A program made the position numbers and the translations under genes. Shown here in pieces: positions 2,605-52,382 of a stretch of DNA of 64,000 nt (positions within the stretch are counted from its first letter, which is position 1; the number at the start of each line of letters is the position of its first letter). This DNA is from Micromonospora profundi (GTDB lineage: Bacteria > Actinomycetota > Actinomycetes > Mycobacteriales > Micromonosporaceae): positions 5,179,001 to 5,243,000 of the forward strand of contig NZ_JAATJK010000001.1 of assembly GCF_011927785.1 (NCBI RefSeq), read 5' to 3'. The notes beneath the pieces were generated by a model. The model ran no database searches. It was not told the DNA's origin and worked only from the letters and a program-made list of their open reading frames with translations.

Positions 2605-4968
2605 TTGGCGCTCGTGCGCGTGTACTGCGGTCTGGCCTCGGCGGATTCGGCTGACCGACCGGCCCCGGCCAGGTCGACGCTGACGTCCGCGGTGGTCGAT
2701 GACGCAGGCCGTCTGCTGCATGTCAGCGAGATCGGTGACGACGCGGCTGGCTACGCCCAGCTCGTCGCGCTGCTCGTGGAGCGGTCGGGCGGGCCGAGCG
2801 GTGCGGCTATCGCCGCCGACAGCGATGACAACACTGTCACTTCGCTGTTGAGCGCGGCGGGTCGTCCCCTGGCGATCGCGGACGACGACCTGGTGGACGA
2901 CTTCGCCGAGCGCTTCGCCGACGACGACTCGCTTGAGGAGATGCAGTCACCGCCGGCCGAGCGTCGTGCCGTCGGCCTGGCCCGCGCGTTGCAGGCTGGC
3001 GCACTCTCCGCCGTCACACTGCCGGCACCCCGGGACCTCGCCGGCTACAAGCAGGTGCTCGCCGCGCACGCCGCTCTGGCCAGCGGCCGGCACTCCGCCG
3101 CCGTGGCGCTGCGTGAGGTGCTGCGGGAGCTCTACCCGGCCGCGCTGCGGGCTTACCCGGACCCGGCCGAGCCGGTCTCACTGGCGGTGCTGGACGCGCT
3201 GCCCGAGCCGGGCATGCTCGGCGGCACCGTCGCCCGCGGCCGCGAGGTGTCCGTCGCCGCGGACGCCATCGCCGCGCACCTCGCATCGGACGGGGTGGCC
3301 GACGCCGAAGAGATCAACGAGGCGGTCACCGCGCTGCGGGTCGCCATCTCGGAGACGCCGCGACGCGCCACCGTCAACCGGGCACTCACCTCCGCCGTGG
3401 CCGAGACGGTCCGGCAGGCCGTCGCCTCCGTACGGGCCTGTGATGCCGGCTGCGAGGCGCTGGTGAGCGCCCTCAGCTCACGGGTGCGGACGCCCGCCCC
3501 GACGCCGGGCCGCCGGGCCGCCGCCCGCCATGACGACTCTGCTAACGAGTTGCCCGGCCTGACCAACACGGGCACCGGCCTGCGTGCCGTCCGACCGACC
3601 CCGACACCCCAGCCGGCGCCTGTCGTCGGCCGGCGCAGCCGTCCCGAGCCGGCCCCGGGCAGCCCCCCGCTCGCGTCGCCGCGCCCACTCGGGCCGCCGC
3701 CGGTCGCCCCTGCTCCGGTCACGCCGCCTCCTGTCGCACCCGCGCCCATCGCCCCGGCTGCGATGGCCGGCCCGCCGGTTTCGGCACCTCCCGGGCGGGC
3801 CGAGCCGACCCCGAGCCGGATCGACGGCCCGACCAACCGCCCGGTCTCCGCGCCACCGCCTCCGCCGCCCGGGATCACCCCGATCGCTCCAGCGCAGCGC
3901 GGCACCGTGCCGCCGGCCGAGGCGGGCGAGCCGTTCCGGCCGACCCTCACCACCGCCGCGATCAACAACGCGCGGGCCGAACGGCAGCGCACTGTCATCC
4001 CGCCGCGTCCCAAGACCAACGGCGAGCGACCGAGCCACCAGCGGCCCATCGAGGAGCCGCACACCGGCGGGTTCAGCGCCACCGACCTCAGCATCCCGGT
4101 GCCCGCCCCCCGGCCGGGCCAGGAGCAGCAGGCGCCTCCGGGCTCCCGGGCGAACTGGCCTCTGGTCAACAACCCGGAGGACCCGGCCGACAGCTCGCCG
4201 AACAACCCGGCCGCCTACTCGTACGGTGGCGGGCGGGGCATCGAATCCCCGACCGATCCGGGTCGGGCCGACGGTCGGGTCACCCCGCCGTGGCTGGCTG
4301 ACGACCTGCCGCAGGAGCCGCCCATGCTGCGGCTTGTCGAGCCGCCGCCGCTGGCTGACCGGGCGCTGCGGGAAGGGCTCAACCCGTCGACCGACCCGCG
4401 CCTGGAGACGCCGCCGCTGCGGCTCGTCGACCGGGAGCAGGCCGCCCGCAACGACCGCCCCTCACCGCGTGCCGACCGTGCCCCCGAGCACCGCCCGGCG
4501 CCCCCTGTCGAGCATCGGCCACCGCCGGTCGCTGACGAGGGTGACGGCGACCTGCTGATCTTCGCGCAGGCCAAGTCCGCCTGGTTCGTCGGGCACGCCG
4601 AGGAGTCCGATCTGGACTGGTCGACCACCGCAGACACGGGCTGGCAGGCCGCCGAGCAGGCCGCCCGGCCGTCGGTTGGCGCCGAGACCAACGCCGGGCT
4701 GCCGAAGCGGGTGCCGCAGGCCAACCTCGTCCCTGGTTCCCCGCTGCGCGAGGAGCGTCCACTGCGGATAGTGCGCGACGCCGCCAGCCTCGCAGAAAAC
4801 ACCACAGGCTACTTCCGCGGCTGGCGTCGCGGGCAGGAGATCGGCGGGTTCGCGGTGGGTGGCCGACCGGGTCGCGAGGCCGCCGGCGGCTGGGACTTCA
4901 GCCGCGATCACGGTGACCGCGACGACGACCACGAGTACGAGTACCGCTCCGCGGGCTACCAGTCCTGA
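2605..4968 (+). CDS. IS110-transposase-like N-terminus fused to proline-rich linker and CvnA-like C-terminal tail
   Basis: 787 aa from a TTG with GGGAGGAGG at 2588-2596. Residues ~1-175 follow the layout of the IS110 DEDD RNase H-like domain: strand VRVYCGLASAD, strand LTSAVVDDAGRLLHVSEI, AGYAQLVALL, then a long helical part ending ALREVLRELYP. The acidic catalytic residues expected in IS110 (the D of GxDxxK, the E of ExTG, TDxxDA) are not recognisable, so transposase activity is unlikely. A helical stretch (~215-290) leads to a proline/alanine-rich linker (~300-640). The last ~150 residues contain LLIFAQAKSAWF, TADTGWQAA and AGLPKRVPQANLVPG. The same motifs in the same order end the conservon kinase encoded convergently next door. 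A role alongside the conservon is inferred. Confidence 0.75.
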   Translation: MALVRVYCGLASADSADRPAPARSTLTSAVVDDAGRLLHVSEIGDDAAGYAQLVALLVERSGGPSGAAIAADSDDNTVTSLLSAAGRPLAIADDDLVDDFAERFADDDSLEEMQSPPAERRAVGLARALQAGALSAVTLPAPRDLAGYKQVLAAHAALASGRHSAAVALREVLRELYPAALRAYPDPAEPVSLAVLDALPEPGMLGGTVARGREVSVAADAIAAHLASDGVADAEEINEAVTALRVAISETPRRATVNRALTSAVAETVRQAVASVRACDAGCEALVSALSSRVRTPAPTPGRRAAARHDDSANELPGLTNTGTGLRAVRPTPTPQPAPVVGRRSRPEPAPGSPPLASPRPLGPPPVAPAPVTPPPVAPAPIAPAAMAGPPVSAPPGRAEPTPSRIDGPTNRPVSAPPPPPPGITPIAPAQRGTVPPAEAGEPFRPTLTTAAINNARAERQRTVIPPRPKTNGERPSHQRPIEEPHTGGFSATDLSIPVPAPRPGQEQQAPPGSRANWPLVNNPEDPADSSPNNPAAYSYGGGRGIESPTDPGRADGRVTPPWLADDLPQEPPMLRLVEPPPLADRALREGLNPSTDPRLETPPLRLVDREQAARNDRPSPRADRAPEHRPAPPVEHRPPPVADEGDGDLLIFAQAKSAWFVGHAEESDLDWSTTADTGWQAAEQAARPSVGAETNAGLPKRVPQANLVPGSPLREERPLRIVRDAASLAENTTGYFRGWRRGQEIGGFAVGGRPGREAAGGWDFSRDHGDRDDDHEYEYRSAGYQS

Positions 4969-14057: not shown

Positions 14058-15341
14058 TCAGCCGATCCGCTCGATGACAAGCGGCGTCGCGGCCGGCGCG
14101 GCGGGCGCGATCCGCACCGCGCGGGCGGCCTCCGCAAGCGCCGCCGGGATCCGCGTGGCGTCGTCGGCGCGCAACTCGTAGAGGGGGTCGCCGGCCCGCA
14201 CCGCGTCGCCCGGCCGCCTGTGCAGCACCACCCCGGCCGGCACGCTGACCGGGTCCTCCTTGCGGGCGCGGCCCGCGCCGAGACGCCAGGCCGCAACCCC
14301 CATGGCGTACGCGTCGACGGCCGCCACGTACCCGTCCTGCTCGGCGCGGACCACCTCGACCTCCGGCGCGGTCGGCATCGGGGCGTCCGGGTCGCCGCCC
14401 TGCGCGCGGATCATCGCCCGCCAGGTGTCCATGGCGCGGCCGTCCCGCAGCGCGGCGGCCGGGTCGGCGTCCGACAGACCGGCGGCGTCGAGCATCTCCC
14501 GGGCCAGGGCCAGCGTCAGCTCCACCACGTCGGCCGGTCCCCCACCGGCAAGCACCTCGACCGACTCGGTCACCTCGACGGCGTTGCCGATCGCCAGGCC
14601 GAGCGGGGTGGACATGTCGGTGAGCAGGGCGACCGTCCGTACGCCGTGCGCGCCACCCAGCTCGACCATCGTGCGGGCCAGCTCGCGGGCCTGGTCGACG
14701 GACTTCATGAACGCGCCCGAGCCGACCTTGACGTCCAGGACCAGCGCGCCGGTGCCCTCAGCGATCTTCTTGCTCATGATCGAGCTGGCGATCAGCGGGA
14801 TCGCCTCCACTGTGCCTGTCACGTCACGCAGCGCGTACAGCTTGCGGTCGGCGGGGGCGAGCCCGGCACCGGCCGCGCAGATCACCGCGCCGACGTCGCC
14901 GAGCTGGGTGATGAACTCGTCGTTGCTCAACGCGGCCCGCCAGCCGGGGACCGACTCCAGCTTGTCCAGCGTGCCGCCGGTGTGCCCGAGGCCCCGGCCG
15001 CTGAGCTGCGGCACGGCCGCGCCGCACGCCGCCACGAGCGGAGTGAGCGGCAGGGTGATCTTGTCGCCGACGCCGCCTGTGGAGTGCTTGTCGACTGTCG
15101 GCCGGCGTACCGCCGACAGGTCGAGCCGCTCACCGCTGGCGATCATCGCGGCGGTCCACCTGGCGATCTCCGGCCCGGTCATGCCGTTGAGCAGGATCGC
15201 CATGGCCAGCGCGGACATCTGCTCGTCGGCGACCACCCCCCGGGTGTACGCGTCGACCACCCAGTCGATCTGGGCGTCCGACAGCACGCCCCCGTCCCGC
15301 TTGGCCCGAATGACGTCAACAGCAGCAAAACCACTACTCAT
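14058..15341 (-). CDS. deoA: Thymidine phosphorylase
   Basis: 427 aa from the ATG at 15341 (reads MSSGFAAVDVIRAKRDGG), with GGGAAGA about 7 nt upstream; an upstream extension to 15455 runs through a hairpin and is not coding. The pyrimidine-nucleoside phosphorylase signature is complete: STGGVGDKITLPLTPLVAACG, SGRGLGHTGGTLDKLES, KKIAEGTGALVLDVKVGSGAFM. Residue 18 onward matches the family N-terminus, and length matches bacterial DeoA (~430-440). It splits thymidine or deoxyuridine with phosphate. Together with cytidine deaminase just upstream it turns imported deoxycytidine or thymidine into base and deoxyribose-1-phosphate. Confidence 0.97.
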   Translation of the reverse strand: MSSGFAAVDVIRAKRDGGVLSDAQIDWVVDAYTRGVVADEQMSALAMAILLNGMTGPEIARWTAAMIASGERLDLSAVRRPTVDKHSTGGVGDKITLPLTPLVAACGAAVPQLSGRGLGHTGGTLDKLESVPGWRAALSNDEFITQLGDVGAVICAAGAGLAPADRKLYALRDVTGTVEAIPLIASSIMSKKIAEGTGALVLDVKVGSGAFMKSVDQARELARTMVELGGAHGVRTVALLTDMSTPLGLAIGNAVEVTESVEVLAGGGPADVVELTLALAREMLDAAGLSDADPAAALRDGRAMDTWRAMIRAQGGDPDAPMPTAPEVEVVRAEQDGYVAAVDAYAMGVAAWRLGAGRARKEDPVSVPAGVVLHRRPGDAVRAGDPLYELRADDATRIPAALAEAARAVRIAPAAPAATPLVIERIG

Positions 15342-15397
15342 CAGAAGATCTTCCCTAGTCTGTTGCAGATCCCGACCGACGGCCGCCGGCCATGTGG

Positions 15398-15469
15398 GGC
15401 GGGGGCCGACCGTGCCCGGCGGAGGGATCAAGCCTGACCGCCCGGAGCCGGGCACGGTCGGCCTCCGCC
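15398..15469. repeat. Hairpin with constant 26-nt loop, copy 1 (between cdd and deoA)
   Basis: Arms at 15404-15420 (GGCCGACCGTGCCCGGC) and 15447-15463 are perfectly complementary over 17 bp; pairing extends to 15398/15469 with one mismatch. The loop 15421-15446 contains GGGATCAAGCCTGACCGC and ends CCCGGA. It matches the loop of the hairpin at 49877-49950 at 25 of 26 positions, though the stems are unrelated. It starts 8 nt beyond the cdd stop codon on the - strand. Confidence 0.85.
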
Positions 15470-15476
15470 CCCAAGC

Positions 15477-16190
15477 TCAACCAGCAGCAGACCAGCGCAC
15501 CGGGATCTCCGCGGGCGGCTCACCCTCGCCGGCCCAGAAGATCGTGCCGGTGGCGTCCACCACCACGACCCGGGGGGTGCGGGCCGCACCCCAGGCGATG
15601 GCCTCCGCCGGGTCGCCCCAGCTGGGCGCCTCCTCCAGCACACCGGTCTCGGCGCCCGCGTCGTCGCCTGCCGACCGCTCCCAGTACGCCGTCCAGACCT
15701 GCTGGCCGGCGGACATGTCCGCGTGTACGAAGACGGTGCCGCGCCCACGCCAGGCGGCCAGCCGCTCGGGAACCACAGGCACCGGCGTCTCACCGGTGAC
15801 CGCCTCCAGGTCCTCCACGCCGAAGGCGTGCGGCAGCAGCTCGGCCATCCGCAGCGGGCCGCCCTTCGCCTCGACGAGGCATTCCGGGCCGCCGTGTTCC
15901 CACAGCAGTTGCCGGCACCGACCGCACGGCATCAACGGCTCGCCCGTGGCGTCGACGCAGGAGAGCGCCACGAGTCGACCGCCACCTGTGGCGTGCAGGC
16001 TGGACACGACACCGCACTCGGCGCAGAGCGTCACCCCGTACCCGGCGTTCTCCACGTTGCAGCCGACCACCACGCGACCGTCGTCGACAAGGGCGGCAGC
16101 CCCGACCGGGAACGACGAGTACGGGGCGTACGCGTGCCGCATCGCCTCCGTGGCGACGGCGCGCAGTAGCTCCCAGTCAATGTCGGTCAT
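15477..16190 (-). CDS. cdd: Cytidine deaminase with ~100-residue C-terminal extension
   Basis: 237 aa. Residues 1-~130 are a homotetrameric-type cytidine deaminase: YAPYSSFPVGAAALVDDGRVVVGCNVENAGYG, zinc ligands and catalytic Glu in CAECGVV, and PCGRCRQLL. The usual enzyme is ~130-140 aa and stops shortly after this. Here about 100 more residues follow (ETPVPVVPERLAAWRGRGTVFVHADM...TAYWERSAGDDAG... RVVVVDATGTIFWAGEGEP), which look like a small alpha/beta domain of unknown function. It deaminates cytidine and deoxycytidine to uridine and deoxyuridine. It lies 58 bp downstream of the nucleoside permease gene and is followed by a hairpin and deoA. Confidence 0.95.
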   Translation of the reverse strand: MTDIDWELLRAVATEAMRHAYAPYSSFPVGAAALVDDGRVVVGCNVENAGYGVTLCAECGVVSSLHATGGGRLVALSCVDATGEPLMPCGRCRQLLWEHGGPECLVEAKGGPLRMAELLPHAFGVEDLEAVTGETPVPVVPERLAAWRGRGTVFVHADMSAGQQVWTAYWERSAGDDAGAETGVLEEAPSWGDPAEAIAWGAARTPRVVVVDATGTIFWAGEGEPPAEIPVRWSAAG

Positions 16191-49289: not shown

Positions 49290-49766
49290 TCAGCGGCGGT
49301 GCACCTCGGCCACCGGGTGGCTACGCCTCTGGCGTTCCGTCTCGGCGTGCTCCTCGGACCCGACCTTGTCGTAGAGGCCGGTGCCCAGCAGGATCAGGCC
49401 GAACACCATCGACACGATCACTGTGGACATCGAGAAGTTGAGGAAGTTCGCCTCGGTCTGCAGCACCGACATCATGAGGATGCTCGTCACGAGGAACACC
49501 GCGCCGGCGGTGAGGTTCATGTAGTGGCCGAGGTTGGTGCGCCGGGACGCCCCGATGATCAGGACAACTCCGAAGATCACCGAGGCGAGCGAGAAGGCCA
49601 GGTTGGTGCGCAGGCCGAGCGCCCAGTGGCTGCCCCTGTCGAACAGCGGGTCACCGAGCGTCTCGGCGACACCCCACACGCCGAAGACCAGGATGTAGAG
49701 GCCGATCAGACCGGCGAGGACCCGGTAGAGCGGCCGTGCCGGATGGTTCACCGGAAAGTGCGCCAT
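49290..49766 (-). CDS. DUF4383 membrane protein, paralogue 1
   Basis: 158 aa from the ATG at 49766 (reads MAHFPVNHPARPLYRVLAGL). Four membrane helices at about 15-38, 50-70, 80-102 and 108-130, then an acidic and basic tail (DKVGSEEHAETERQRRSHPV). The NHPARPLYR start and the short GSEE motif after helix four are diagnostic of DUF4383. No function is known. The second copy (50020-50475) lies upstream on the same strand; the pair looks like a tandem duplication, separated by the constant-loop hairpin. Confidence 0.9.
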   Translation of the reverse strand: MAHFPVNHPARPLYRVLAGLIGLYILVFGVWGVAETLGDPLFDRGSHWALGLRTNLAFSLASVIFGVVLIIGASRRTNLGHYMNLTAGAVFLVTSILMMSVLQTEANFLNFSMSTVIVSMVFGLILLGTGLYDKVGSEEHAETERQRRSHPVAEVHRR

Positions 49767-49876
49767 GCCTCGAACCCCCTGAATCGACCGTTTCAGGAGG
49801 ATTGTCACCCGACGCGACAGAAGCTGTCCGCTGAACAGCCAAAGCGGAAGGTCCGCCGAAAGGCGGGACCAGGTCA

Positions 49877-49950
49877 GGTTCTCGCCGGAGCCCGAGCTGC
49901 GCAGGGATCAAGCCTGACCGCCCGGAGCAGCTCGGGCTCCGGCGAAAACC
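49877..49950. repeat. Hairpin with constant 26-nt loop, copy 2 (between the DUF4383 genes)
   Basis: Arms 49877-49900 and 49927-49950 pair over 24 bp with one mismatch (core CCGGAGCCCGAGCTGC). The loop 49901-49926 equals the loop at 15421-15446 except for one base. The outer 17 nt of the right arm (GGGCTCCGGCGAAAACC) recur at 49969-49985 as a direct repeat. It lies 69 bp beyond the stop of the upstream DUF4383 gene on the - strand. Confidence 0.85.
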
Positions 49951-50019
49951 ACAACAGCGAGCAAGGTCGGGCTCCGGCGAAAACCCACGGCCGCAACCAA
50001 GAGAAGCGACCAAAGGAAC

Positions 50020-50475
50020 TCAGAGCACGAGGCGAGCCTTCTGGAACGCCTCCGCCTCCTCCTCCGACCCGACCTTGCCGTACATGCCGGCCATGAGCAG
50101 CACCATCGAGACCGTCAGCATGACGATCACGGTGAAGACGCTGAAGTTGAAGATGTTGGCATCGGTCCGGATGAACGCCAGGCTGCCCAGGCCGATCGCC
50201 ATGAGGGCGTACGCGAGCCACTGGTTGATCGCCACGTCGATGTTGCGGCCGAGCACGGTGCCGACCAGCACGACGATCCCCAGAAGGACGCTGAGCAGCG
50301 AGAACCCGAAGTTCGTGCCCTGACCGAGCACGTGGGTGTCGTCCTGCGCGAAGAGCTCGTCGCCGGCGGTCGTGATGATGCCGAGCACACCGAAGACCAC
50401 CAGGTACAGACCGGTCAGCCCGCCGATCGCCCGGTAGATCGGCCGCGCGGGGTGGTTGACGGGGGTGTGGGCCAT
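50020..50475 (-). CDS. DUF4383 membrane protein, paralogue 2
   Basis: 151 aa from the ATG at 50475 (reads MAHTPVNHPARPIYRAIGGL). It is clearly homologous to the protein at 49290-49766: the same NHPARPxYR start, four helices (LTGLYLVVFGVLGIITTAG, SLLSVLLGIVVLVGTVL, LAYALMAIGLGSLAFI, FTVIVMLTVSMVLLMAGMY), and a KVGSEEEAEAFQKARLVL tail. Both have the TxANxxNFSxxTVIVxM stretch. Role unknown. Confidence 0.9.
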   Translation of the reverse strand: MAHTPVNHPARPIYRAIGGLTGLYLVVFGVLGIITTAGDELFAQDDTHVLGQGTNFGFSLLSVLLGIVVLVGTVLGRNIDVAINQWLAYALMAIGLGSLAFIRTDANIFNFSVFTVIVMLTVSMVLLMAGMYGKVGSEEEAEAFQKARLVL

Positions 50476-50576
50476 GTCTGATCTCCAACGCCGTGGGTGA
50501 GGTGTCGCCGACGATTGTCCCGCATGTGGTGGTGTGACGCCGCACACGGCCCCCGGGCCGGCGTCTCCCACCCCGG

Positions 50577-52382
<1,806 letters not shown>

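Follow-up and report, generated by a model that had tools for sequence, protein, structure and literature searches.

To our knowledge, the known dispersed bacterial palindromes are conserved in their stems or ends. In Rickettsia, palindromic elements that occur in frame within coding genes are repeats with conservation along their whole length, and the integron attC site sits behind the 3′ end of a gene. REP elements (GTAG/CGTC palindromes) possess stems of 5–13 bp, loops of 2–20 nt and an end tag, as given in the main text of the paper describing them, in which the words Micromonospora and Actinobacteria do not occur (PMC3733652). The attC hairpin, as far as the account drawn on here goes, is recognized by its structure with only the bottom strand being used, and carries extrahelical bases, a central unpaired spacer and a variable terminal structure (PMC2727003). 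The inhibitory RNA-polymerase aptamers (iRAPs) of E. coli are described, in the part of the source considered, as acting in the nascent RNA and preferentially antisense, lowering transcription in cis and reducing antisense interference (PMC5865726).

The hairpin element analysed here inverts the usual palindrome rule: the loop is fixed, the arms are free, and the fold is selected on the strand opposite the gene.

Two copies in the window and their neighbour genes

The window is the whole stretch analysed, 64,000 nt of Micromonospora profundi (NZ_JAATJK010000001.1:5,179,001–5,243,000), and coordinates below are positions in it. Hairpin copy 1 (15396–15471, loop strand +) consists of 25 pairs, one of them G.T, around a conserved 26-nt loop (15421–15446, +). 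Copy 2 (49877–49950, +) has 24 stem positions with one mismatch around a 26-nt loop (49901–49926, +). The first-pass annotation stated that the two loops are identical at 25 of 26 positions with equal boundaries, which is confirmed; none of 100 shuffles of the window reached two loop matches. It also described a perfect 17-bp stem for copy 1. The 17 loop-adjacent pairs are indeed perfect, but the paired region extends beyond them. Its description of the stems as private and sharing nothing holds insofar as copies 1 and 2 belong to different arm sub-families, although the arms in the genus do form recognizable sub-families.

The cytidine deaminase gene cdd (15477–16190, −; ORF and Pfam) has its stop 5 nt from hairpin 1, and the cdd mRNA is predicted to contain the complement of the copy 1 loop. 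Downstream of cdd and the hairpin, in the same direction, lies a pyrimidine nucleoside phosphorylase gene (14058–15341, −; ORF and Pfam), with the start codon at 15341 being our choice. The gene preceding copy 2 (50020–50490, −; within ORF 50020–51012), whose upper boundary is approximate and whose likeness to a DUF4383 gene was judged by eye, has its stop ~70 nt from the hairpin, and a DUF4383 gene (49290–49808, −; Pfam) lies on the opposite side in the same direction. Both copies show the usual polarity described below, copy 1 between cdd and the phosphorylase gene and copy 2 between two DUF4383-like genes. Within 49951–49990, ~15 nt beyond the hairpin, there is a near-identical second copy of the outer right arm of copy 2 (GGTCGGGCTCCGGCGAAAACC).

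Invariant loop and covarying stem

A genome-wide search with a 17-mer of the loop gave 19 places at up to three mismatches, nine of them at up to two. All nine sit in hairpins of 22–25 bp with a 26-nt loop, and a covariance search of the genome returned the same nine hairpins and only one weak extra place (E 0.05). In the alignment of these nine, two-sided changes occur at 22 of 25 stem positions, and pairing is present in 95.0% of 278 stem cells. The covariation score is 0.586, versus 0.152 when shuffled (0 of 500 shuffles reach the observed score) and at most 0.145 for slid versions, over which the structure has an advantage, being defined from the same nine sequences. The inner loop pairs are invariant in the nine copies and so uninformative for or against an inner fold.

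Among 195 distinct copies collected with their flanks, 166 have a stem with a net score of at least 16. Most of these long stems are without a bulge, 150 of them measure 22–26 bp (mode 24), and Watson–Crick pairs occupy 3807 of their 3922 scored positions; many of the remaining 29 copies resemble decayed or slipped stems. The flanking inverted repeat, singled out earlier as the feature to look for around further loop copies, is present in all nine copies of the genome itself and in 166 of the 195 collected. The loop was compared in 222 copies, picked for a paired stem and with up to four mismatches permitted in the 20-nt core. Eleven core positions are constant, and the others each vary in at most four copies; both outermost loop bases, G and A, are retained together in 212. 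Arm sequences change from genus to genus and form sub-families inside a single genus. Positions 3 and 24 of the loop change jointly from A..G to C..A in 13 of the 222 copies, some of which are rpoB–rpoC copies.

A scan of 1.14 Mb, made up of loci enriched for the element, contained 166 hairpins with at least 16 net Watson–Crick pairs, of which 123 carry the element loop and 43 do not. The latter are rarer and mostly shorter (41 score 16–20 and two higher). Insertion of the loop into ordinary long hairpins sharing the element stems was considered and rejected, as none of the 43 non-element stems resembled element arms when judged by eye.

The first-pass idea of a structured element read by its loop, with the stems kept for pairing, is supported by the stem covariation and by the near-invariant core in the 222 copies. 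It is well supported by these comparisons that the element is a dispersed, polar and presumably cis-acting unit of ~74 nt, with a near-invariant, partly self-paired apical loop of 26 nt on a sequence-free stem of 22–26 bp.

Polarity relative to genes and replication

The surroundings of the 166 long-stem copies were examined with a simple home-made gene caller, by which 24 copies lie inside predicted genes. The right-hand gene of the loop strand is antisense to it, with its 3′ end facing the hairpin, in 117 of 141 intergenic copies, and the stop codon lies within 60 nt of the hairpin in 88 of these 117; the reverse polarity is seen in 24 of the 141. The genes before the nine copies of the genome are rpoB, polA, two aldehyde dehydrogenase-like genes, DUF2550, cdd, a DUF4383-like gene, an ABC binding protein gene and one unclear case. 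They look unrelated, and a regulon was rejected on this ground.

Replication was also rejected as the cause of the polarity, since the loop strand is the lagging template in only 38 of 110 listed copies of 15 genomes (dnaA was sought in 18 genomes, three multi-contig ones were dropped, the terminus was assumed to lie opposite dnaA, some copy lists were incomplete and some genome lengths rounded). The polarity tracks genes more than replication. Close inverted pairs of hairpins were considered as transposon ends and rejected, because 7 of 12 annotated loci are convergent genes with one hairpin behind each; two of the seven are orthologues, and the other five of the 12 depart from the plain convergent picture.

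Strand bias of imperfect pairs

A strand that must fold tolerates G.T (G.U in RNA) but not A.C. On the loop strand of the 166 long-stem copies, the imperfect pairs comprise 91 G.T and 24 A.C (p 2e-10), or 74 and 24 when counted per cluster and position; where both neighbour genes are antisense to the loop strand, the numbers are 32 and 6. Read in the sense of the gene, 225 element copies give 19 G.T and 103 A.C, whereas 145 ordinary hairpins behind stops, a control rich in orthologues, give 31 and 15 in the same reading (Fisher p 2.6e-10 versus the element). A stricter control of 77 hairpins, with orthologue sets removed and one hairpin kept per similarity group, gives 21 and 8. Since the copies share ancestry, the wobble p-values overstate independence, and the bias is weaker when 24 loose clusters are counted once each (17 with G.T and 10 with A.C). 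When RNA energy is computed for the stem only, 92 of 134 imperfect stems are more stable on the loop strand and 25 on the sense strand. Including the real loop gives the sense strand a slight advantage in mean energy (−63.6 versus −62.5 kcal/mol, 222 copies), because its apical 26 nt form a somewhat better fold.

The strand selected to fold is the one antisense to the upstream gene, with ordinary hairpins behind genes leaning the opposite way. Taken together, the sequence comparisons show that the loop is near-invariant, that the stems covary, that the element is polar and that pairing is under selection on the antisense strand. The strand bias alone fits single-stranded DNA as well as RNA and cannot tell the two apart.

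These data bear directly on another reading, in which the element works in the sense strand as an mRNA 3′-end element of the upstream gene, namely a terminator, an RNase III site or an end-protecting stem, with the loop bound by an RNA-binding protein. The position just behind stop codons and the better apical fold in the sense strand would agree with it, as would the short hairpin mostly kept between rpoB and rpoC by relatives without the element. However, the excess of A.C over G.T in the sense reading is opposite to that of ordinary hairpins behind genes, and no T run follows the stem. We consider a sense-strand role improbable.

Distribution across genomes

With up to two mismatches, the loop is found in 207 of 354 genomes of the family and in 21 of 44 genera, at 0–31 matches per genome, these counts being loop matches for which complete hairpins were not required; 16 genomes of the genus are without any match at this threshold. 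With up to one mismatch, it is found in 33 of 61 relatives including the window's genome; 32 of these belong to the genus and the remaining one to a different family of the same order. In G037, the genome from that different family, a locus (L070) has two loop-like matches at up to three mismatches (4027–4046 and 4157–4176), 130 bp apart in the same orientation; the stricter search (up to one mismatch) listed one match in this genome.

In a sample of the phylum, matches were confined to 2 of 396 genomes, that of the window and that of one congener. Among named genomes, at least 120 stretches matched, and the 80 matches listed are mostly from Micromonospora, with Actinoplanes and other genera, which we take to be of the same family, also among them. 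Trueperella bonasi (two entries) and an Actinomycetaceae MAG (one entry) are likewise among the matches listed; by our estimate, about two chance matches to the pattern are expected in a collection of that size. Two distant matches were accepted for having stems, L126 with 21 of 21 pairs and L121 with 18 positions and a net score of 14, and both adjoin gene starts rather than ends; L137 was rejected as a distant copy since it has no good stem.

Such variable copy numbers, with 16 empty genomes in the genus, and the patchy spread to Trueperella and the Actinomycetaceae MAG, despite only two matching genomes of the window's genus in the phylum sample, raise a serious rival, which is also the main one. 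The element may be a non-autonomous mobile hairpin. Its loop strand would then be acted on, in single-stranded DNA form, by a putative recombinase or transposase recognizing both loop and fold, and insertion would prefer gene ends. The strand bias, fitting single-stranded DNA equally well, is compatible with it. On the other hand, the polarity tracks genes, and the loop strand coincides with the lagging-strand template, the one that single-strand transposition usually uses, in a minority of the listed copies. Copies differ in their outer stem, and terminal motifs stay at or below ~0.6 bits. No match to the loop was found in viral contigs (exact pattern) or in the plasmids searched. Phages and plasmids were accordingly rejected as carriers; the phage matches cover only ~33 nt at 88% inside a coding gene and were taken as chance.

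Gain, loss and switching at orthologous sites

The spacer between rpoB and rpoC contains the element in some species, a short ordinary hairpin in many and a decayed loop in four; in several of the short hairpins, the arms resemble the outer portion of the long stem. A tree was built from 57 aligned pieces, of which one (G003) was relabelled as element and another (G206) as decayed by hand before counting; on this tree, element presence requires 10 changes, seven of them forced by well-supported branches. The clustering of the element on the tree is weak, with 43 of 500 shuffles being as low. Some sister species have unrelated spacers, and the spacer types do not follow the gene tree. Recombination therefore plays a part and blurs gain versus loss.

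This departure from the gene tree, along with the near-perfect Watson–Crick stems, could be accommodated by an evolutionary by-product without function, in which palindromes are kept perfect by template-switch repair and the loop is spread by recombination; palindrome correction by template-switch repair does yield near-perfect stems. Yet neither the gene polarity nor the strand bias versus control hairpins would be explained, nor would the constancy of the loop across genera whose arms differ, and we regard a by-product as very improbable.

Behind polA, in 30 genomes compared, the element is present in G000, G030 and G024; G002 has a short hairpin with the same outer arms, and the others show no trace of the element in the stretch inspected. 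Several species have two further copies in frame within a Methyltransf_28 gene, one copy with its loop strand in the gene's sense. At the first of these sites, G000, G002 and G024 retain GGGGTTTCC, as a deletion between two TCCG repeats would leave. In G008, G021, G009 and G013 (L367, L370, L381 and L382), there is an apparent different palindrome at the methyltransferase hairpin linker; its arms resemble ATCAAGNNGTTTG ... CAAACNNCTTGAT, and it may represent another palindromic family in the same gene. Beside the first site in G224 (L366), tandem near-identical repeats of ~33 nt code for GVGGAGFVAS-like units.

Orthologous sites switch between a long hairpin and a short loopless one, with filled and loopless sites being found at rpoB–rpoC, at polA and in the methyltransferase gene. 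Several loopless sites carry remnants of the long form, which points to loss, and no clean recent insertion with an empty site was found among the orthologous sites compared. The earlier alternative, that the element inserted into terminator hairpins through their loops, has evidence on both sides: short hairpins with matching outer arms do occur as it would have them, but several sites hold remnants of loss and none a clean insertion.

In G224, 17 copies are related in their arms and share part of their flanks. At four places in this genome, pairs of hairpins bound a repeated unit of ~2.4 kb (L417, L418, L419 and L420; aligned pieces 77–98% identical), which encodes a secreted protein with no Pfam match. 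This protein has 4980 relatives, and the 120 listed are mostly from Micromonospora, with several copies in one species. A similar secreted-protein start peptide is found beside hairpins in L069 and L073. The related copies of G224 with the hairpin-bounded unit, and the in-frame copies in the methyltransferase gene, speak for the mobile hairpin; the lack of a clean recent insertion among the sites compared speaks against it. Weighing both sides, we think a mobile single-strand hairpin unlikely.

Proposed function

We tentatively favor, at somewhat less than even chances, the reading that the element is a signal read by its loop, which labels the 3′ ends of genes and works through the antisense strand, stopping or destabilizing backward transcription. 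RNA polymerase would enter the 3′ end of a gene from outside, either in antisense transcription or by read-through from a convergent gene. The nascent antisense RNA would fold into the loop-strand hairpin; its loop would then be read, by the polymerase or by a putative trans factor, and that transcription would be stopped or destabilized. Transcription in the sense direction need not stop at the hairpin, and such passage would account for a copy lying between cdd and the phosphorylase gene and for those in the rpoB–rpoC spacer.

The support for antisense action comes from the covariation with few wobbles, the polarity in 117 of 141 copies, the strand bias versus controls, the stem-only energies and the lack of a replication effect, together with the reported antisense preference of the E. 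coli iRAPs (PMC5865726), to which the proposed effect is comparable. Against it stand the slightly better sense fold with the real loop, the missing T run, the 24 of 141 copies with reverse polarity and the 24 of 166 intragenic ones, as well as the sense-oriented methyltransferase copy, the per-cluster count of 17 versus 10 and the location of L126 and L121 at gene starts. A more specific version is doubtful. In it, the loop-read antisense hairpin would be a polar guard behind housekeeping genes across Micromonosporaceae, which blocks backward transcription and lets sense transcription pass, and genomes losing the factor would lose the loops. Loss of the loop after loss of the putative trans factor would explain the 16 genus genomes without a match.

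If acting as RNA, the element would be a widespread and unannotated means of shielding the 3′ ends of genes against antisense transcription; if acting as DNA, it would represent a novel type of recognition site in single strands. In both cases, the near-invariant 26-nt loop offers a direct handle for finding its reader.

Comparison with known classes

Searching the window with Rfam 15 at gathering cut-offs gave only a tRNA and no match to the element. In nine 3-kb loci at a lax threshold, the hairpins gave only sub-threshold matches resembling microRNA precursors and RT-13, with a cspA-like stretch elsewhere. A literature search, whose scope was largely journals outside subscription, returned no description of a fixed-loop hairpin element. 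In a flank profile of 121 distinct arms, the 3′ flank of the loop strand is rich in C and A, the sense 3′ side has no T run beyond the first position (T 0.55), and no position outside the stem exceeds 0.6 bits, with no end tag.

None of the known classes tested has its defining features in the element. Intrinsic terminators resemble it as GC-rich hairpins behind stop codons. The element differs in having no T run, in its reversed strand bias relative to ordinary hairpins and in its presence between rpoB and rpoC; selection for pairing in the sense RNA of the upstream gene, which defines such terminators, is not what the pairs indicate (G.T 19, A.C 103). Rickettsia palindromic elements are alike in their in-frame copies inside genes, whereas the element has a conserved loop and free arms. 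As described in the REP paper, REP elements are likewise short dispersed palindromes whose copy number varies widely between species, some being in genes and paired units being common; in contrast, the element has a sequence-free stem of 22–26 bp and a fixed loop of 26 nt, and lacks a tetranucleotide tag (PMC3733652). On the account of attC given above, attC and the element share a hairpin recognized by structure and a folded strand antisense to the preceding gene. Both also lie behind the 3′ end of a gene. They differ in that the terminal loop is the conserved part of the element, which has neither the extrahelical bases nor the central spacer. The iRAPs, known from SELEX in E. coli, are likened to the element by their described effect rather than by sequence or structure (PMC5865726).
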